Position numbers and translations under genes: made by a program. Positions 479 through 9,492 of a stretch of DNA of 64,000 nt are shown here, in pieces (within the stretch, counting starts at the first letter, position 1; the number at the start of each line of letters is the position of its first letter). The notes under the pieces are model-generated. The model saw only the letters and a list, made by a program, of their open reading frames with translations. It made no database searches and was not told the DNA's origin. Origin of the DNA: Bradyrhizobium ottawaense (GTDB lineage Bacteria; Pseudomonadota; Alphaproteobacteria; Rhizobiales; Xanthobacteraceae); NCBI RefSeq assembly GCF_002278135.3, contig NZ_CP029425.2, positions 1,116,001 through 1,180,000 of the forward strand, written 5' to 3'.

Positions 479-1033
479 TTAGGCGCGTCGCAGCATTCGC
501 GGGATGTGGACACGGTGAAAACCGTGGGTCTGCACTTGTCGGCGAAGTTTGGGGGTGTCATTGACGCCGAACGCAACCGCCGCCTTCAAGGGGCTGGCAA
601 AGGTTGCGTAGAAGGTCCAGCGAGCGTCTTTCGGCAGAGGCGCGTTCTGCCGACGGTCGGTGATGACGACGTCGCGCGGGTCTTTGGTATTGCGGAAGGC
701 ATGGAAGGTGATCCAATCGGGCCGCCTGTAACGTGCCGCCTTGCTGAAGGGCACCGACTGAACCTTCACGTCGCTTTGGTCGAGAACCCAATCGCGCTGT
801 TCCAATATCTGCCTGACCATGTGGCCGACCATCTGCTTGACGCGGTCAACCAGAACATCTTCGCGAAACTCCTCCAGAAGCTGCTCCTCGATGCCCTCGA
901 CGGCAGGCTTTCCGAGCTCCGAGGCCGTCTCCAAGCGAGCGATAGTGGCGGGCTTCGTAAGAAACGACCAAATCCGCTGACCGATGTCGGACTCCGAGAG
1001 CGAGGCGAATTTCTCCGGATTGTAACGAAGCAT
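479..1033 (-). CDS. Hypothetical protein, 184 residues, island-encoded
   Basis: I do not recognise this protein. It has 184 residues, starts at ATG 1033 and is preceded by a good AAGGAG ribosome-binding site about 8 bases upstream. The N-terminal half is helical and charged (residues about 1-75). The second half has many aromatic and basic residues, including an RRPDWITFHAF stretch. There is no signal peptide or membrane segment. Its promoter region holds two tandem near-palindromes that are probably an operator. It is divergent from the XRE regulator gene and upstream of the Cap4-like nuclease on the same strand, so it may be a regulated partner of that nuclease. Confidence 0.6.
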   Translation of the reverse strand: MLRYNPEKFASLSESDIGQRIWSFLTKPATIARLETASELGKPAVEGIEEQLLEEFREDVLVDRVKQMVGHMVRQILEQRDWVLDQSDVKVQSVPFSKAARYRRPDWITFHAFRNTKDPRDVVITDRRQNAPLPKDARWTFYATFASPLKAAVAFGVNDTPKLRRQVQTHGFHRVHIPRMLRRA

Positions 1034-1047
1034 GATAAAGGTCTCCT

Positions 1048-1077
1048 TGACCGGTCATAAATGGCCGGTCATAAATG
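1048..1077. promoter_or_regulatory. Tandem operator-like repeats before the 184-residue gene
   Basis: The 13-base sequence CCGGTCATAAATG occurs twice, at 1051-1063 and 1065-1077, with a 14-base period. The first copy includes the perfect palindrome TGACCGGTCA (1048-1057); the second includes the near-palindrome TGGCCGGTCA (1062-1071). They lie 15-44 bases before the start codon at 1033, and the first overlaps the ribosome-binding site. A repressor bound here would block that gene. The divergent XRE protein encoded from 1220 is the obvious candidate, by position only. Confidence 0.6.
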
Positions 1078-1219
1078 CCTAGTCAAGGGTACTGCACGTT
1101 GAATTGCCCAGTTTGCTGGTTTGCCGCCAGTGTGCCGCTCCGATTCCGGTCGGCTGCCTCACGCTGCCAGGCTCCCTCATGTAAATTTTGAGTCATCGAA
1201 TACACGGGATGAGGTTGAG

Positions 1220-1996
1220 ATGAGGAAGGTCGTGCCGAACGGGAAGGCGGTGAAAGCCCTGAGGGAGCAGCTTGAAAGGCTGTCGACCCAAAAGGAAATG
1301 GCGAGTGAAATCGGTGTCAGCATTCGCATGCTTCGTATGATCGAGAATGAGAATGCGCCAATTGCAGTGACAACGGCTGAACGGTTGGCAAAAGCGCTGC
1401 AAGTTCATCGTGAACGCATTATCCTTGGCTCCGAGCTTTCGGAAATGACGCCGACCGTAAGTGCGCCGGAAGTCCTTTCCGCGCTGATGGAAGATGAGGA
1501 CCGGCTCATCCCCCGCAACGACTATGACATCGCCAGTGCGACAGCGGACGAGGGCGCGCTCTATACGGAGGCGGCCCGCTCGCACGACGTGGCCTGCATT
1601 ATCGAGACAACGCTCGATGAGGAAACTGGAGCCTATGCGCAGGAGCTTTTCGATATCCTCGTTGGCTTGTCCTGGTCGCAGCGAGATATTCTCGTCGACA
1701 TTCCCCCCGCGACGGAGATCGCGGTTCGCCGGCGCCTGCGACAGCTCATCGTCCTTCTCAAGGGCAACGACATCTGGATTTATCGAACCTCGGTTCTGAG
1801 GCGATTGCCGGAGCGCTACACGGTCGCACCGCCGGACGAGCCGTTCTCCTATCAAAGCCGTCAGGTCGTAGCACTAGGGCCGCCGGGTGAATATGGCGAG
1901 ACCACCATGCGCGTGCCGATCGATCATGGGCAGCCGTTCATCCTTCCGGCATGGCGGAAGCTTCGCAAGAGCGACAACGAAACAGAGACAGCCTGA
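1220..1996 (+). CDS. XRE-family HTH regulator with unknown C-terminal domain
   Basis: The protein has 258 residues. Residues about 12-68 form an XRE-type helix-turn-helix: a KEMASEIGVSIRMLRMIE segment and then a LAKALQVHRERI helix. The remaining 190 residues match nothing I recognise; they carry an acidic stretch and a hydrophobic segment near LRQLIVLLKGNDIWIY. I chose ATG 1220 because GAGG lies just upstream and the HTH begins soon after; the frame stays open back to 1121. It is divergent from the 184-residue gene and lies upstream of the 74-residue protein and the SMC-like ATPase. It probably controls both directions, as regulators of defence cargo often do. It lacks an HExxH protease motif, so it is not an ImmA-type protein. 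Confidence 0.75.
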   Translation: MRKVVPNGKAVKALREQLERLSTQKEMASEIGVSIRMLRMIENENAPIAVTTAERLAKALQVHRERIILGSELSEMTPTVSAPEVLSALMEDEDRLIPRNDYDIASATADEGALYTEAARSHDVACIIETTLDEETGAYAQELFDILVGLSWSQRDILVDIPPATEIAVRRRLRQLIVLLKGNDIWIYRTSVLRRLPERYTVAPPDEPFSYQSRQVVALGPPGEYGETTMRVPIDHGQPFILPAWRKLRKSDNETETA

Positions 1997-2085: not shown

Positions 2086-2310
2086 ATGAAGTTTAAGCTG
2101 GAAAATACTTTCGAGGACAATCTCGCTTTGTTTAGGGCCGAGGCTGTACAGATCGATCCCGAATGCGCGAAGATCCTCTTCGACAATTTGCATCTGCTGG
2201 ATTCGGGAGGTGACACCGCGCCAAGCCGGGCAACAATCGGCGAGTTTCATAAGGCGGTACTGGATGCGCTTGATGGCATGTCCATCCCTCTGGGCGAGGA
2301 CAAGGCATGA
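2086..2310 (+). CDS. Small 74-residue partner of the SMC-like ATPase
   Basis: This protein has 74 residues, mostly helical and acidic, with no signal or membrane segment. GGGGGAG stands just before the ATG, and the stop codon overlaps the ATPase start by four bases (ATGA at 2307-2310), so the two are translationally coupled. A small protein directly ahead of a Rad50-like ATPase matches the middle component of ABC-three-component conflict systems described from genomic surveys. The assignment rests on position and size, because I do not recognise the sequence itself. The regulator gene ends 89 bases upstream. Confidence 0.6.
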   Translation: MKFKLENTFEDNLALFRAEAVQIDPECAKILFDNLHLLDSGGDTAPSRATIGEFHKAVLDALDGMSIPLGEDKA

Positions 2311-4796
2311 CGCGGTATTTCCTGGGCAGCCTGTCCATCGAGGGTTTTCGTGGGATCAATAATGACGGTGACCCGCTCGTCCTCAAGTTCAAATCTGACG
2401 CCGTCAACTCGGTGCATGCGCCGAACGGCGTCGGTAAAAGCTCCATATTCGAAGCCGTTTGCTTCGCGATCCACGGCATTGTCCCGCGCCTGAAGGCGCT
2501 CCAGGAAGCCGAGCAGGGCGACAGCTATATCGTGAATCGCTTCCATCCCGGGCAGCAAGCGACGGTTGATCTGATATTCGCCAGCGATGACGCCTCGCCA
2601 GATGTGGCGATCAAGGTGGTGCGGGCTGCCAACGGTGCGCGCCTAGTGACTTCGCCGAGCGGTCATGCCGACCCGCAGCAGTTCCTCGCGAGCCTGCAGG
2701 AGGATTTCGTCCTCGTCGACTATAATCGGTTCGCAAAGCTCATCGATATCTCCGCCTTGGAGCGGGGACGTTCTTTCGCATCGCTCGTGGGACTGAGCCG
2801 ATACTCCCGGCTACGTCAGGCTCTGGACGGCGCCAAGCGAACGCAGAACGTCAACAGTGATCTGGGCCTCTCCGCGCTTGATGCCGAGGTGACCACAGGC
2901 GCGCGCGCGTTGAGTGCGATCGAGCGGCGTGTCATTGCGGCGCATGACGAGGTCGCCGGAGCGGGAAGCGCCGCCGTCGATAAACTCTCCGATCTGAAGG
3001 CGGCGGTAACCGCCGCCTTATCCGCCATCGCCTTGCTCAAGCCATTGATCGGCGAGGCCTCGGTAATGGATCTCGATTTCGAAGCGGCAGAGTTGGCGAT
3101 CGAGAAACAGGAAGGCGGCGAAGCGCGAAAGACGCTGGACACGCTAACGACCTCCGCCACGTCGCTGGCGGGGCTTGAGGTCACGGTAGAGGAATTGGCC
3201 GACGTTGATCGGCTGCTCGAGTTGGCCGGAAGAAGAGACGAGGCCGTGCGCAGCGTCGGCGCGGAAGCATTGCACGCCCTTTTGCGCGATGCGCTGGCTG
3301 TGGTGTCCGGCTCCGATTGGCACGACCCGAATCAATGCCCAGTTTGCGGGGCGAAAGGTAGTGATGCTCTAAAGCCGCGGCTGGAAGGCAAGATCGCTAA
3401 ATACGATGTAGCCGCTCAGCTCGGGGCCGAACTCATCAACGATGTCGCCACAGCGCCTGGGATCGCGAAGCTACGCAAGCTTGAAGAGGCGCCGGCCATG
3501 GCGATCGCGACGGGTGATCGCTTGCACGTAGCGTTCGATTTGGCCGCCAAGAAGGGGGATTTGGCGACCTCCGACCTGGAGATCATCAAGGCGCGCCTCG
3601 GGGTTCTTGAAACGCAGCGTGGCGAAACTCTTGCTCGGGTGCGAGGTGAGGCCGACGCGTTGCAGGCGCGCTTGCCTCCCTCATTGGTGCAGGTAACCCG
3701 CATCCTCAGCTTCGCAAAGCAGTTCCGCGATGCCGTGCTGGAATACGAGAGCGGCGAGCCGGTGCTCAAGGTGAAACAGGACAAGCTCAAGGTTCTGAAT
3801 CGCTGGAAGACATTCATCACGCGCGCCGGCCAAAGCTTTGCTGATGCCGAAGCCGAACTGGCCAACGAGCGGATTGGCGAGATTCAGACCGCTTGTCAGG
3901 ATCTGTTCGGCCGGTTCGTGCGAGGCGGTCCCGATGTGAAGCCGACCCTGAGCCGCGCGCAGAACAGCGAAAACGTTGATCTAAAGCTCGCGGACTTCTT
4001 CGGCCTACAGGACCTCAGTGCCCGGGCTCTACTCTCGGAAAGCTATCGGAACGCTGTGGCGGCTGCGATTTTCTTCGCGGCCGCGACCAAGCACAGCGGT
4101 GTTCCGCGCTTCATGGTGCTCGACGACGTGACATCGAGCTTTGACGCTGGTCACCAGTTCGCGTTGATGGACGCCGTGCGGACGTTGCTACGCTATGGCG
4201 CTGTGCCGGACGGGCTGCAGTTCATTTTCCTGAGCCATGACACCAGCCTGGAGAAGTACTTCGACAAGCTCAATGGCACTGCGGATTGGCATCACCAGAA
4301 GCTCCAAGGCATGCCTCCAAAGGGGCGGCTCATGGTATCGGCCCAGGAGGCGGATCGTCTCAAGGCGCAGGCGTTGCAGCACCTGAATGCTGGCCAGATC
4401 GATATTGGTGCGCCGATCCTGCGGCAATATCTCGAATACAAGCTGGGACAGATTATCGCCAAGTTGGAGATCCCTGTTCCACCGGACTATGCCACCCGTG
4501 GTGACAAGCGGACGCTTTCGACCTACATCGACGCAATCGGCGAGGCCGTGAAGCTTTATCATGCGGCCAATCGGTGTGTGCTGACGCCTCAGCAGATCGC
4601 CGATCTCCAAAACCATCATGTGCCATCGATCGTTGGGAATTTCGTCAGCCACTACGAGACCGGCGCGGGGACGCCTTTCAACGCCTACGCCTTGCTGGGG
4701 GTGTTGCAGAGCATTGATAGTCTCGCGGACTGCTTTACCTACGTTGATCCGAGTAACGGACAGAAGCGATACTATCGCCGGTTAGATCGCCGTTAA
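2307..4796 (+). CDS. Rad50/SMC-like ATPase with zinc-hook motif
   Basis: An 829-residue ABC-type ATPase. Walker A is PNGVGKSS (39-46) and a CPVC zinc-hook motif sits at 344-347 between two helical arms. The signature motif is LLSESYRNA (575-583), Walker B is FMVLDD (602-607), the D-loop SSFD (610-613), and the switch histidine lies in LSHD (642-645). This order is that of Rad50, RloC and LmuB-type SMC-like proteins. Unlike Rad50 it continues for about 180 residues after the switch histidine, ending in a helical domain with an NFVSH motif (778-782) reminiscent of HEPN folds. Start ATG overlaps the upstream small gene. Likely role: DNA-sensing or DNA-gripping ATPase of a defence system. Family placement is firm; the exact system is not. 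Confidence 0.85.
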   Translation: MTRYFLGSLSIEGFRGINNDGDPLVLKFKSDAVNSVHAPNGVGKSSIFEAVCFAIHGIVPRLKALQEAEQGDSYIVNRFHPGQQATVDLIFASDDASPDVAIKVVRAANGARLVTSPSGHADPQQFLASLQEDFVLVDYNRFAKLIDISALERGRSFASLVGLSRYSRLRQALDGAKRTQNVNSDLGLSALDAEVTTGARALSAIERRVIAAHDEVAGAGSAAVDKLSDLKAAVTAALSAIALLKPLIGEASVMDLDFEAAELAIEKQEGGEARKTLDTLTTSATSLAGLEVTVEELADVDRLLELAGRRDEAVRSVGAEALHALLRDALAVVSGSDWHDPNQCPVCGAKGSDALKPRLEGKIAKYDVAAQLGAELINDVATAPGIAKLRKLEEAPAMAIATGDRLHVAFDLAAKKGDLATSDLEIIKARLGVLETQRGETLARVRGEADALQARLPPSLVQVTRILSFAKQFRDAVLEYESGEPVLKVKQDKLKVLNRWKTFITRAGQSFADAEAELANERIGEIQTACQDLFGRFVRGGPDVKPTLSRAQNSENVDLKLADFFGLQDLSARALLSESYRNAVAAAIFFAAATKHSGVPRFMVLDDVTSSFDAGHQFALMDAVRTLLRYGAVPDGLQFIFLSHDTSLEKYFDKLNGTADWHHQKLQGMPPKGRLMVSAQEADRLKAQALQHLNAGQIDIGAPILRQYLEYKLGQIIAKLEIPVPPDYATRGDKRTLSTYIDAIGEAVKLYHAANRCVLTPQQIADLQNHHVPSIVGNFVSHYETGAGTPFNAYALLGVLQSIDSLADCFTYVDPSNGQKRYYRRLDRR

Positions 4797-4886: not shown

Positions 4887-6140
4887 CTAGTCGAAGTGTG
4901 GGTCGGGATAGCGCTCTTCGATGACGTAGCGCATGACATTCCACCAGACGTTCTCGATCGTGTAGTCCATCGGTTTGATTTTGCGTGGGACCCACTCGCC
5001 GAGCGAGCTTGCCATGCGGACATGCCCGGGGGTCTTGATTTCCGGTTCCCTCTCGGCGGCCGTGCCCGATTTGACCGACAGCTCAATGACGTTGAGCGTA
5101 TCCCGATCATATTCAATGATCGCCTGGAGGAAGCTGCCCTTATCGGTTAGCGGATGAGCGGCTGTATGGGATACAAGAGCCACTTGCAGTTTATCGCCCA
5201 TTGCGATGTAAGGCTCTAGCAGTCCGTCTGTCTGGAGGCCTTGGCGCCAGCGGTCGTGGGTGTCGAGGGCGTCTGGAAAATCGCCCCAGTTGAAGTCTCC
5301 CCGGCCGCCGAAGGTGATCTTGCCGTAACCATCGACATGGTAACGCAGCGCGTCCATCAGCTCGAGCGCTCGACGCGGGTCTTTTTCTGTAAGGACCGCG
5401 TCGATGGCTCCCAACACCTCCTCCATGTCGAAAACGATCTTTCTGAGCTCCTCTTTTTGCTCAACAAACATCTTCGGGATTTCACCGACGGGGTTCGGAA
5501 GCGGAAGTGTCCAAGGAAAGTCGATGTCGTCTTCGCTGAAGCGCCGATAGGGAATGTTGAGCTTGTCCAGGAAGGCGGCCGACTGGTAGTAGGTCTGGCT
5601 CTTCAAGCTATGCTCGATCTGATCGAGTGCGAGCTTACGGGCATTAATTCTAAAAGTGCCTTGGAGCGCAGTCGTGCCGACGACGTAGCTTTCCGGTGAA
5701 TGGGTGCTGCTGATGGATAGCGTGTTGACGATTTGCCGGGCCGACAGCAGGTACATCTCGCCGTCGTCCTCCCGGCCGACGTGAAGAAGCGCGAAGAAGC
5801 CTTCGAGCGGCATTCCTTTGTCGTCAACCACGTAGCTTTTGGGAATGTAGTGCGTTGTGCGGCGATCCTGAAAATATTTTGCCTGTATCACTCCGACGCG
5901 CGGCGGGACTCTATCGGTAAATCGCTGCGTGGTGGTGCGTCGCTGTATGAGAAAATCGGCCCCGTCGGTATCTACGCTCCGCTCGAGAACCCAGAACCGG
6001 TCGATGAGAAAAGAACGCGTACGCGCTTCTCCGACGGCGCCGTTCTCCATAATTTTGAGCCACGTCGGCCAGCTGTCTTCCACGAGATTGTCCTGTGCTT
6101 TCTGGGGTTTTGTCGGTGTCGGATTTGCCGCGAAAAGCAC
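4887..6140 (-). CDS. PD-(D/E)XK-fold nuclease-like protein, 417 residues
   Basis: Residues 34-90 have the restriction-endonuclease fold pattern: GAVGEART (E38), then VDTDGADF (D59, D62), then VIQAKYF (Q86-x-K88). This resembles DUF4365/Mrr-like domains. The remaining 320 residues are unknown; they include a helical stretch at about 225-270 and a Trp-rich C-terminus (WWNVMRYVIEERYPD). The GTG start at 6140 lies one base after the upstream yhcG-like stop. An internal ATG at codon 31, just before the nuclease motif, is an alternative start. It is the last gene of the integrase operon and converges on the SMC-like ATPase. Likely an effector nuclease or the DNA-cutting part of a restriction-type system. 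Confidence 0.7.
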   Translation of the reverse strand: MLFAANPTPTKPQKAQDNLVEDSWPTWLKIMENGAVGEARTRSFLIDRFWVLERSVDTDGADFLIQRRTTTQRFTDRVPPRVGVIQAKYFQDRRTTHYIPKSYVVDDKGMPLEGFFALLHVGREDDGEMYLLSARQIVNTLSISSTHSPESYVVGTTALQGTFRINARKLALDQIEHSLKSQTYYQSAAFLDKLNIPYRRFSEDDIDFPWTLPLPNPVGEIPKMFVEQKEELRKIVFDMEEVLGAIDAVLTEKDPRRALELMDALRYHVDGYGKITFGGRGDFNWGDFPDALDTHDRWRQGLQTDGLLEPYIAMGDKLQVALVSHTAAHPLTDKGSFLQAIIEYDRDTLNVIELSVKSGTAAEREPEIKTPGHVRMASSLGEWVPRKIKPMDYTIENVWWNVMRYVIEERYPDPHFD

Positions 6141-6141
6141 C

Positions 6142-7485
6142 TTACTCGTCTGTATTCAGTTTCTGGAGTTCCCCAAGGAAGATCGTGCCGATTTCGACGG
6201 CGCGTTCAGCGGTCTCCGGGTCCACATCCATGCCATGCGTAGCTTCGTTCATGGTGTGGAGGGCGTCGAGCATCTGCTCTGTGCTACTTGGCACCGATCC
6301 ATTTCGATGCAGATCACGGAGCATTTTCATGATGCCGGTCGGCCGGTCGAAAGCGACGCCTCGCTTGTCCGCGAGATCGCGTACCGCGCGCTCGATTTCG
6401 ATGCGTAGCTTGACCACGGACATCAGTGGAAATTCTCGCGCGAACTCCGCGGCCGTCGGGAGGGCATCCTCGAGTTGTGGCGGCAACGCAGCCGAGAGCT
6501 GATACTGGGCGACCCCCATCGGTTTGCTGGAGTCTCGCAACGCGTATTCCACGATCACCTCGTTGCGCCCTTTGCACAAGATGATGCCGATGGTCGGTTT
6601 GTCGTCGGGATGGCGCAATTGCTCGTCCACGGCCGAGAGGTAAAAGTTCATCTTTCCCGCAAATTCGGGTTTGAAGTCTTCGATCTTCAGCTCGATCACC
6701 ACGAAGCAGCGAAGACGCAGATGATAGAAAAGAAGGTCCAAGTAGTAATCCTGCCCGCCGACTTCGAGGTGATATTGGCTGCCGACGAATGCGAAGCCCT
6801 TGCCGAGCTCGAGGATGAGTGAACGCAGATGCTCGACCAAACCACGCTCGAGGTCGCGCTCCAGCATGTCTGGGCCAAGCGAGAGGAAGTCGAACGTGTA
6901 GGGGTCTTTGAGGATTTGTTGGGCAAGCTCGGACTGCTCTGCGGGCAGGGTTCGCGAGAAATTGGTGAGGGCGCTTCCTTGCCGGGCAAAAAGCTTGCTT
7001 TCGATCTGATGGACAAGAACGTTACGACTCCAGCCGTGTTCAATTGCCTGCCGCGCGTACCAGGTGCGCTCTTCCTGCGTTTTGACGGCGTCGAGCAAAC
7101 GGACGTTATGCCCCCATGGCAATAGTGCAACAACCTGTTGCACAAATTCGCCGTTGGGCCAGGCCTCGGCGAACGAGCGCATGTATTTCAGATTCCGGGG
7201 CGATAAACCGGTCATTTCCGGGAAAGCCAGGCGAAGATCGCCAGCCAGACGGTCGACCACCCGGGCACCCCAACCTTCGCGCTCCTGCCGTTCCAGGATG
7301 TCGCGCCCGATCGTCCAGTAGAGCGTCACTAGCTCGCGGTTGATCGACAAGCTGGCTCGGTGGCGTGCCGCCGCGATCTTCTGCTTCAGATCCCCGACGA
7401 ACGCCGTGTAGCTTTGCGCGTCCACTTCGCCAGCGGAACCGAGCGCATCGCTGCGGCGAGGGGGCTTTCGCGGCCGCGAGCTCAT
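6142..7485 (-). CDS. YhcG/DUF1016-family PDDEXK nuclease with C-terminal extension
   Basis: A 447-residue protein. Residues about 25-170 are the DUF1016 N-terminal helical domain (INRELVTLYWTIGRDIL, LSPRNLKYMRSFAEAWP). Residues 195-345 are the YhcG nuclease domain with D250 and the E265-L-K267 motif. Residues 355-447 form an extra helical domain with NEATHG (413-418), like the HEPN/DUF4145-type modules at the ends of many defence proteins. E. coli YhcG, at roughly 375 residues, lacks this tail. The start ATG at 7485 overlaps the integrase stop by four bases, so translation is coupled to the integrase. YhcG proteins are common on mobile elements and resemble nucleases; their exact role is unsettled. 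Confidence 0.85.
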   Translation of the reverse strand: MSSRPRKPPRRSDALGSAGEVDAQSYTAFVGDLKQKIAAARHRASLSINRELVTLYWTIGRDILERQEREGWGARVVDRLAGDLRLAFPEMTGLSPRNLKYMRSFAEAWPNGEFVQQVVALLPWGHNVRLLDAVKTQEERTWYARQAIEHGWSRNVLVHQIESKLFARQGSALTNFSRTLPAEQSELAQQILKDPYTFDFLSLGPDMLERDLERGLVEHLRSLILELGKGFAFVGSQYHLEVGGQDYYLDLLFYHLRLRCFVVIELKIEDFKPEFAGKMNFYLSAVDEQLRHPDDKPTIGIILCKGRNEVIVEYALRDSSKPMGVAQYQLSAALPPQLEDALPTAAEFAREFPLMSVVKLRIEIERAVRDLADKRGVAFDRPTGIMKMLRDLHRNGSVPSSTEQMLDALHTMNEATHGMDVDPETAERAVEIGTIFLGELQKLNTDE

Positions 7486-8723
7486 GCGGCCTCTTTCAGT
7501 CGCTTCTTCGCCAGCATGGCGCGCACGAATTTGTCCCATTTCGCCATGCCAGCGCGTTTCTCGATCATATAGTGCCAGCGGTCGTAGTGCTTGGAGCTGA
7601 CATCCTGTAGCGCGTGGTTCTGGAGGCGATCGCGGATTTCCTTCGACACGCCTGCCTTGCCGGCGAGCGTCTTGAACGTGCGCCGGAGATCGCGGTTTGT
7701 CGCATATGGAATCACGCCGCGATCTCGCTGCCGCCAAACAAAGCTATAAAGAGTGCCGTGGCTGACAGGCTTCGAGGGGTCCTTGGCGGAGGGGAAGAAC
7801 CAGCCATACTCGTTCGGCTTGATCTTTTCGATCAGCTCGGCGGCAAGCAATGGCACTGGGACAGCGTGCGGCTGGAGGTTCTTGGTCTTCGACCAGTCGA
7901 TGATTCGCTCACTGGCGTCCCATTGATTGACATGAAACCGCGCGATCTCCTCGACGCGCTGCCCTGTCAGCATGATGAGTTGCACCGCGCGGGGATAGGA
8001 GGGGTGGACCGGCGTGTCGGGGCTCTCCAGCCAGCGATAGAGTTGCACAAACTCGTCTTCGTCAAGCCAGCGCGTGCCCTGGATCTTAGGCTCGGTAGGA
8101 ATGCCGGTTGCCGGATTGAAAGGGAGTCGAAAGCGTCTGGAAGACTGCTGCCGATAGTCGTTGTCAGACTTCATGCCCCAGCTAAAGGCGGCATGGAGAT
8201 AGGAGCGCACATGGTCGGCCATTGATTTGGCACCGCGCTCGTAGATCGGGCGGATCAGCTCGATGATTTCCTCGGCCTCGATCTCGCGAGCGAGGCGGTT
8301 GCGTCCGAGCGTGTCGGCGATCTTGTTAAGGCCTTTTTCCGTTTCCTTCCAGGACGGCTTGCTCGCATCCTTGAGCGCGGCGACATAGCCTTCGAACAGA
8401 TCAGCGACGGTGCCGGGGCGCGTGTCGGTAGCGATCTTGATGCTGCGACCCTTCTGGATGACGTCGGCGAAGTCGCGTTTGAATATTTCGCGTGCCTGGG
8501 CGAGCGATATGGAGGGATAAGCCCCGAGCTTCTTCTTGGTCCGCTTCCCATCGCGCCATTGCTGCGCCATCCAGTCGGCGGTGACGCGCTTCGGCATGGG
8601 CTTGAGGACAAGCACGAGGCGGCCGGTGCCGCGCCCTTCACCGTCGGCGAGATTTTCCTGTTTCTGACTTAGCTCCACCCGCTTCAACGCATGTCGGATC
8701 GCGGTGTCGGTCAGGCTTGGCAT
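7482..8723 (-). CDS. P4-type tyrosine integrase
   Basis: A 413-residue site-specific recombinase. Residues about 10-95 form the arm-binding DUF4102-like domain, 105-200 the core-binding domain and 215-400 the catalytic domain. Candidate catalytic residues are R256 (LTGQRVEEIA), R347 in RDLRRTF (Arg instead of the more usual His at the first position), H370 and nucleophile Y380 in KHYDR. I chose ATG 8723 because AGGAGG lies just ahead of it. It lies next to the disrupted radC and reads away from it, as expected for the integrase that brought the island in. Its stop overlaps the next gene, so cargo expression is tied to integrase transcription. Confidence 0.9.
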   Translation of the reverse strand: MPSLTDTAIRHALKRVELSQKQENLADGEGRGTGRLVLVLKPMPKRVTADWMAQQWRDGKRTKKKLGAYPSISLAQAREIFKRDFADVIQKGRSIKIATDTRPGTVADLFEGYVAALKDASKPSWKETEKGLNKIADTLGRNRLAREIEAEEIIELIRPIYERGAKSMADHVRSYLHAAFSWGMKSDNDYRQQSSRRFRLPFNPATGIPTEPKIQGTRWLDEDEFVQLYRWLESPDTPVHPSYPRAVQLIMLTGQRVEEIARFHVNQWDASERIIDWSKTKNLQPHAVPVPLLAAELIEKIKPNEYGWFFPSAKDPSKPVSHGTLYSFVWRQRDRGVIPYATNRDLRRTFKTLAGKAGVSKEIRDRLQNHALQDVSSKHYDRWHYMIEKRAGMAKWDKFVRAMLAKKRLKEAA

Positions 8724-8730
8724 GGCGTTT

Positions 8731-8736
8731 CCTCCT
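8731..8736 (-). promoter_or_regulatory. Ribosome-binding site of the integrase
   Basis: AGGAGG on the minus strand stands seven bases before ATG 8723. The same frame is open for 42 further codons upstream, so this site decides the start. Confidence 0.7.
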
Positions 8737-8880
8737 GTGCCGCAACTGGGATCGGTCGAGGAGAAACGGGGATCGTTTGCTGGGATCGGAAAGCCGCTTT
8801 CAACCCCTCTTACCGCTCCCAATTTGCCATAGCCGCCCCCTGTGTGCAATGAAGAAAAAATCGGATATATCGTTGATGAT

Positions 8881-9492
8881 TCATCGGTATTGAACGTGAT
8901 CCAACGTGATCATAGGGTGGGTAGTGGGGTGGTTGTGCACGAGGATCAAGGCGGTCGCCGATAATTCCAGCGCGCGCTTGATCACTTCGCGCGGATAGAC
9001 CGGGGTGTGGTCCACGGTGCCGGTCTGCTGCACCTCGTCGGCGATGAGCTGGTTGCGCTTGTCGAGAAACAGCAGGCGAAACTGCTCCCTGTCGGCAAAA
9101 GCCATGCTGGAGCGGCAATAATCGATCACCTCGTTCCAGGACGACAGCGCGTTGCGGCTGTTGACCTCGCCCTTGGTCACGCGGCTCGCGGCGGCCGCAA
9201 TCAGCTTGAGCTGGTTGATCGCGGCCTCGCCGATGCCGTCAACCTCGCGCAAGCGCGCCACCGGCGCGTGCACGACCTCGGCGAACGAGCCGAAGGACTT
9301 GATCAGCGCCTTGGCCAGAGGTTTCGTGTCGCGTCGCGGCAGTGCCGGAAACAGCGCCATCTCCAGGAGTTCGTAGTCGCTCAGCGCATCCGCGCCGGCA
9401 TTGTAGAAACGCTCGCGCAGCCGCTCGCGATGGCCGTGATAATGCGGCGCGTCTTCAAGCTTGCTCTTGTCGTGGTCCGGCTTGGCGGGCAT
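8881..9492 (-). CDS. radC: RadC-like JAB-domain protein, C-terminally truncated by the island
   Basis: The 203-residue product starts normally ([11 protein letters not shown]). It has the helix-hairpin-helix region ([17 protein letters not shown]) and the start of the MPN/JAB metalloprotease fold. The metal motif of the family is HNHPSGDP followed by Ser and Asp ligands. Here H186-N-H188-P189 is kept, and the last 14 residues ([14 protein letters not shown]) match no RadC. About 45-50 residues of the normal C-terminus, including the Asp ligand, are lost. It lies 93 bases downstream of map on the same strand. The truncated product probably cannot bind metal as the intact family does; RadC is in any case dispensable in many bacteria. 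Confidence 0.85.
8893..8935. other. Island-radC junction with tandem 10-base repeats
   Basis: The sequence AACGTGATC occurs twice in tandem (8893-8901 and 8903-8911, period 10) just inside the point where radC diverges from its family. The radC side reads HNHP-coding sequence to about 8926. Short direct repeats beside a junction are typical recombinase arm or core sites. The true crossover core can only be fixed by comparing the other island end, which is outside the window. Confidence 0.45.

Follow-up and report, generated by a model that had tools for sequence, protein, structure and literature searches.

The stretch of DNA analysed here (the window) comprises 64,000 nucleotides of the Bradyrhizobium ottawaense genome (contig NZ_CP029425.2, positions 1,116,001 to 1,180,000 of the forward strand). 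Near its start lie two intact open reading frames (ORFs) that share 4 nucleotides, the first for a 74-residue protein and the second for an 829-residue Rad50-like ATPase with a zinc hook, at the positions that a first-pass annotation, made from the sequence alone, had given them. That annotation had read the two as a coupled, unnamed defence-linked module, a view borne out by the small protein's presence in every examinable homologous locus and by restriction–modification (RM) and Hachiman neighbours. The parts of the pair are as follows:

2086..2310, plus strand: 74-residue small protein, putative subunit; unmatched by Pfam, PADLOC and NCBIfam models
2307..4796, plus strand: 829-residue Rad50/SMC-like zinc-hook ABC ATPase with a HEPN-like C-terminal domain
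2421..2444, plus strand: Walker A, PNGVGKSS, residues 39-46
3336..3347, plus strand: zinc hook, CPVC, residues 344-347; both cysteines kept in 73/73 homologues
4032..4127, plus strand: ABC signature LSES to Walker B FMVLDD, residues 576-607
4335..4793, plus strand: HEPN-like domain (predicted fold), five main helices, about residues 677-829
4422..4436, plus strand: R706-x3-E710, both invariant (73/73)
4638..4652, plus strand: N778-x3-H782, both invariant (73/73)

Homologous loci were collected by a pattern scan, based on an ATPase alignment, across the GTDB species-genome collection; 88 were confirmed and the best 80 examined. By their tree labels they come from Pseudomonadota, Bacteroidota, Planctomycetota, Nitrospirota, Actinomycetota, Bdellovibrionota, Cloacimonadota and Ignavibacteriota, and they are not independent events, several of the type III RM rows being near-identical cassettes. 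The ATPase start was examinable in 78 of the 80, and residue conservation and the ATPase tree (a quick tree, drawn from its midpoint, near-copies included) are based on 73 rows. At E<=1e-20 the ATPase occurs in 1 of 385 genomes of the host class, namely the window's own, and none of 50,697 phage records gave a match at E 1e-5.

The pairing of the two proteins is real. The small protein is present in all 78 examinable loci, in 59 as a separate ORF, 45 of which end 4 nucleotides into the ATPase frame like that of the window, and in 19 as an in-frame N-terminal extension of the ATPase, with a linker that by eye is mostly Ala/Pro-rich. Fusion requires one change on the 73-row tree, and in a natural fusion the part that corresponds to the small protein is predicted to form a 3-helix domain. 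A plain tblastn query with the window's small protein detects the small gene in 36 of the 80 loci; a profile seeded with 23 database homologues iterates to 44, 67 and then 78 of 78 loci (E<1e-3) with no off-target match among 11,298 ORFs, the expected sites having been supplied as candidate stretches and the later rounds trained on earlier matches. Each of the five plasmid copies retrieved has the gene as well. The profile has no match in 21 loci with AAA_13 matches that served for comparison (short flanks; two overlap, and 7 are below the AAA_13 cut-off), nor has it any in the short flanks of the Rad50-like ATPase paralogue in the window's own genome, which bears a CPAC motif in an 814-residue frame (L002, G000:C1:140512).

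The 829-residue protein passes the Pfam AAA_23 model (4.6e-10) and keeps the Walker B aspartate, Asp607, in 73/73 homologues. Its C-terminal domain is predicted to adopt a HEPN fold: the structural model has a predicted local distance difference test (pLDDT) of 82, and its best matches among solved structures, scored by VIA-align, are HEPN proteins (2hsb 7.8, 5yep 7.5, 1o3u 7.1, 6m6u 7.0, 4nqf 6.9, 1wol 6.9, 3o10 6.6). At a mean column identity of 53% for the domain, R706, E710, N778 and H782 are invariant in all 73 homologues. The canonical HEPN motif Rx4-6H is absent, N778-x3-H782 having no arginine 4-6 residues before the histidine. Three PDB sequences matched a profile of the domain at E 10 or below, the best at 0.077, and were uninformative; Pfam gave weak, scattered matches on 57 C-terminal domains (TPR_WDR35 in 8, best 0.0053; DUF5677 in 3; HEPN_AbiU2 in 1). 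Among 27 aligned RloC-type rows, the corresponding R-x3-E positions are occupied by R in 27 and E in 26, and those of N-x3-H by N in 27 and H in 26. The RloC of G. kaustophilus loses its activity when R692, E696 or H737 is mutated (PMC2610378). An Arg-x3-Glu...His triad of this kind is found as R706, E710 and H782 in 73/73 homologues, H782 being a possible counterpart of H737. The effector that the first-pass annotation found missing from the operon need not be missing: the likeliest effector is the ATPase's own C-terminal domain, with its RloC/PrrC-like anticodon-nuclease residues.

In our assessment the pair is probably an unnamed two-subunit, RloC-like ABC-HEPN ribonuclease that acts on its own or together with a restriction or Hachiman system next to it; at the level of sequence its constant pairing, natural fusions, motifs and swaps of context are established. 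The DNA sensing and tRNA cutting are proposed by analogy with the switching of RloC and PrrC. RloC's nuclease is activated by linear DNA and ATP hydrolysis, and in cells by inducers of DNA breaks (PMC3874168); a restriction enzyme holds PrrC until a phage anti-restriction peptide releases it, and HEPN families are often linked to RM operons (PMC3710099). With its Rad50-like ATPase and zinc-hook coiled coil, the 829-residue chain would detect DNA, DNA ends or the condition of a DNA-bound restriction complex (for instance, its stalling), and an ATP-driven rearrangement would then free the C-terminal HEPN nuclease. This end would cut RNA, most likely tRNA, leading to a stop of translation and an aborted infection. 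The 74-residue protein would serve the ATPase as an obligate subunit, structural or regulatory in role, and the pair might stand alone or serve its restriction or Hachiman neighbour as a second line, as PrrC does for EcoprrI. The ribonuclease activity, tRNA target, trigger and role of the small subunit are what we infer here. Homology between the C-terminal domain and that of RloC is not supported by profile comparison (hhalign probability 0.3).

A search of the neighbourhood for a constant third gene, as suggested in the first-pass annotation, found none among the 80 loci. Same-strand RM genes stand upstream of the pair in 16 of them: type III genes in L016-L021, L024, L037 and L069; MmeI-like type IIG, helicase and GIY-YIG genes in L014, L022, L023 and L027; type II/IIG-like methylase genes in L025 and L026; and a methylase operon in L032. 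The restriction gene ends within about 30 nucleotides of the small gene, or overlaps it, in 13 of these 16, the gap being about 230 nucleotides in L022 and L023 and two genes intervening in L032. A type IIG set is divergent in L033, Hachiman HamA and HamB lie on the opposite strand in 8/80 loci, and TmtA-like and Mokosh-like neighbours (L013) or SbcCD-like ones (L078) also occur. On the ATPase tree the neighbour labels require 12 changes (minimum possible 8) and same-strand RM requires 5; judged from these sequences, partners are swapped along the tree. In the plasmid copies, for which gene tables are incomplete and in one case lacking, no RM operon adjoins the ATPase gene in Cereibacter, Rhodococcus or Bradyrhizobium; the Bradyrhizobium plasmid has a restriction endonuclease gene beyond an insertion sequence, and the Rhizobium copy faces a helicase/DUF262/methyltransferase set. 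Some groups of loci have genes of their own. Five type III cassettes carry a 640-residue HATPase_c_3 gene about 40 nucleotides 3' of the ATPase (L017:12539-14458, L018, L019, L021, L069). In the most distant clade (L073, L076 and L079, from Bacteroidota, Cloacimonadota and Ignavibacteriota) the ATPase is directly followed by a conserved gene of about 343 residues, whose copy in L073 matches nothing in Pfam or PADLOC, and L076 and L079 have a common 96-residue ORF before the small gene.

Alongside such neighbours the pair could also be seen as a general plug-in guard, a reading that we hold possible and rather unlikely: it would monitor an adjacent DNA-targeting system (type III RM, type IIG RM or Hachiman), to which the small subunit would act as adaptor, and would respond by cutting RNA if that system were inhibited or overwhelmed. 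If true, it would extend the logic of PrrC and type I RM to unrelated systems.

We give somewhat less credit to a toxin-antitoxin system, in which the small protein acts as dedicated antitoxin and keeps the HEPN nuclease blocked until the small protein or the neighbouring RM system is lost. HEPN toxins in such pairs are known (5yep), and the order of the genes, a short one first that overlaps a longer one by 4 nucleotides in 45/59 separate loci, would fit. However, 19/78 loci carry the small domain in permanent fusion with the ATPase, and its place is at the ATPase N-terminus, away from the HEPN end. A subunit suits these data better than a labile antitoxin, and the most fitting view of the small protein is that of a lasting component of the ATPase.

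Slightly more doubtful again is a C-terminal domain that is non-catalytic and serves RNA binding or dimerisation, the pair being a DNA-end sensor or remodeller that aids adjacent restriction. The Rad50-like head, the close operon linkage to type III and IIG genes and the lack of an arginine at the canonical Rx4-6H place all point this way. Against it, the R, E, N and H quartet is kept without exception in a domain that otherwise varies, its R-x3-E and N-x3-H are common to the RloC rows, and the plasmid copies with no adjoining RM operon would be left with no effector.

The pair sits in an island, the other features of which are:

479..1033, minus strand: 184-residue protein of no known family
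1045..1088, no strand: conserved tandem/palindromic repeat of 44 bp between divergent genes
1220..1996, plus strand: XRE (HTH_3) regulator of 258 residues, ATG at 1220; a neighbour in the close lineage only
4887-6140, facing strand: 417-residue protein without a family match
6142-7458, facing strand: DUF1016/YhcG PDDEXK nuclease, PADLOC PDC-S02

The module of the window is a 100% match to the Bradyrhizobium loci L003 and L004. The XRE regulator does adjoin the pair here, as the first-pass annotation had it, but as a lineage-specific neighbour (12/80 loci). The 44-bp repeat, a candidate XRE operator, is kept with few substitutions in the window and in 6 of 10 relatives with both genes (the 6 included in the alignment). 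The 184-residue gene, the XRE gene, the small gene and the ATPase gene are common to L005-L011 and L039, where HamA-HamB stand behind the 184-residue gene; in the window, L003, L004 and its own genome a 595-residue gene takes their place. The latter starts at 360 and extends beyond the window edge, and its product matches AAA_22 and, below threshold, a Cap4 nuclease. The window locus is not a Hachiman locus: L003 and L004, with 100% identical island genes, have no HamA or HamB, and its own genome has the 595-residue gene there. The 184-residue protein, found before HamA-HamB in eight loci and before the Cap4/AAA-like gene here, may be a shared accessory or regulator. The facing-strand genes, earlier put forward as effector candidates, are not constant partners and are restricted to the island lineage (417-residue gene in 6/80 loci, DUF1016 in 9/80, the ATPase always at least 90% identical). 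That one of these two or the Cap4-like 595-residue protein is the separate effector of a Lamassu/ABC-3C-like sensor pair, the kinship first suggested, is very improbable: the best PADLOC LmuB model does match the ATPase (63.6 bits, 5e-18) and the 595-residue gene does have its sub-threshold Cap4 match, just outside the window, yet the LmuB match ends at residue 653, there is no constant third gene, none of 23 small proteins matches any PADLOC model at E<=0.1, and 829 residues with Asp607 contrast with the about 650 residues and generally Glu-to-Gln Walker B of LmuB (PMC10586767). Further along, a tyrosine integrase abuts radC (7482-9492), the frame of which is interrupted just after its HNHP motif; because the same integrase-radC arrangement recurs in L009 and L012, radC looks like a preferred integration site.

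If our proposal is true, the idea of an RM-linked suicide nuclease, known from PrrC, extends beyond type I RM to a portable two-gene unit that is linked with type III and type II/IIG restriction, lies beside Hachiman and also occurs outside such operons. It would moreover give a role to a family of small proteins in which the 23 members scanned have neither a Pfam nor a PADLOC match (NCBIfam: window member only). With its invariant quartet and natural fusions, the unit lends itself to direct testing in laboratory strains. A full-text search for the pair and its relatives recognised no paper describing the two-gene unit, most subscription journals being outside its reach.

The closest likeness among known systems is to RloC, a tRNase that excises the wobble nucleotide, with which the window ATPase has in common a Rad50-like split ABC ATPase, a zinc-hook coiled-coil insert, a DD..SS Walker B/D-loop, the C-terminal R-x3-E...N-x3-H and a similar size (RloC 658-897 residues); the ATPase profile aligns with RloC over 341-672 (probability 93.8, E 1.8e-7). 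In contrast to RloC, which has no dedicated partner gene, the module has a constant, sometimes fused small subunit; the E-to-N spacing in its C-terminal domain is longer, and the domain does not match that of RloC by profile; and it ends RM operons in 16/80 loci, whereas RloC genes stand at type I or III RM loci in 8/72 (PMC2610378). The window ATPase also stays below the PF13166 (AAA_13) cut-off (18.4 bits versus 36), the RloC-type L088 reaching 599.8 bits. Given the partner gene, the C-domain profile and the AAA_13 result, we file the module as an ABC-HEPN variant, not as RloC itself. The ABC-HEPN groups APECO1_4465 and ERFG_01251 likewise fuse an ABC ATPase to a C-terminal HEPN domain (PMC3710099); they are known here by description only, and a small partner gene goes unmentioned in the text of that paper used here. 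The module might fall within one of these ABC-HEPN groups of the 2013 survey. PrrC-EcoprrI resembles it in combining an ABC ATPase with a nuclease triad and in backing up restriction as a second defence line, but PrrC has 341-416 residues, lacks the coiled-coil/zinc-hook insert and is linked to type Ic RM.

Lamassu/ABC-3C systems also combine a small protein with a Rad50-like ATPase, often with a zinc hook. The module, with its own HEPN-like C-terminal domain, has no LmuA effector gene and no LmuC match, and membership was rejected on these two grounds, length and Walker B. The text of a Hachiman structure paper (PMC12278908) has no match for SMC, ABC ATPase or XRE. The nuclease-protease pairs that Hachiman, AVAST and Lamassu have acquired (PMC12799240) are likewise a gene pair that recurs in defence systems unrelated to each other; their proteins are not related to those of the module, but they set a precedent for a gene pair joined to Hachiman. 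Finally, DndD-DndE and the CxC ABC ATPase-DndE pair (PbeC-PbeD) consist of a coiled-coil ABC ATPase and a small partner joined to RM-like genes (PMC10853773). The small protein of the window differs in that it precedes the ATPase and matches no DndE model, but these pairs provide a precedent for ABC ATPases with small partners being joined to different systems (PMC10853773).
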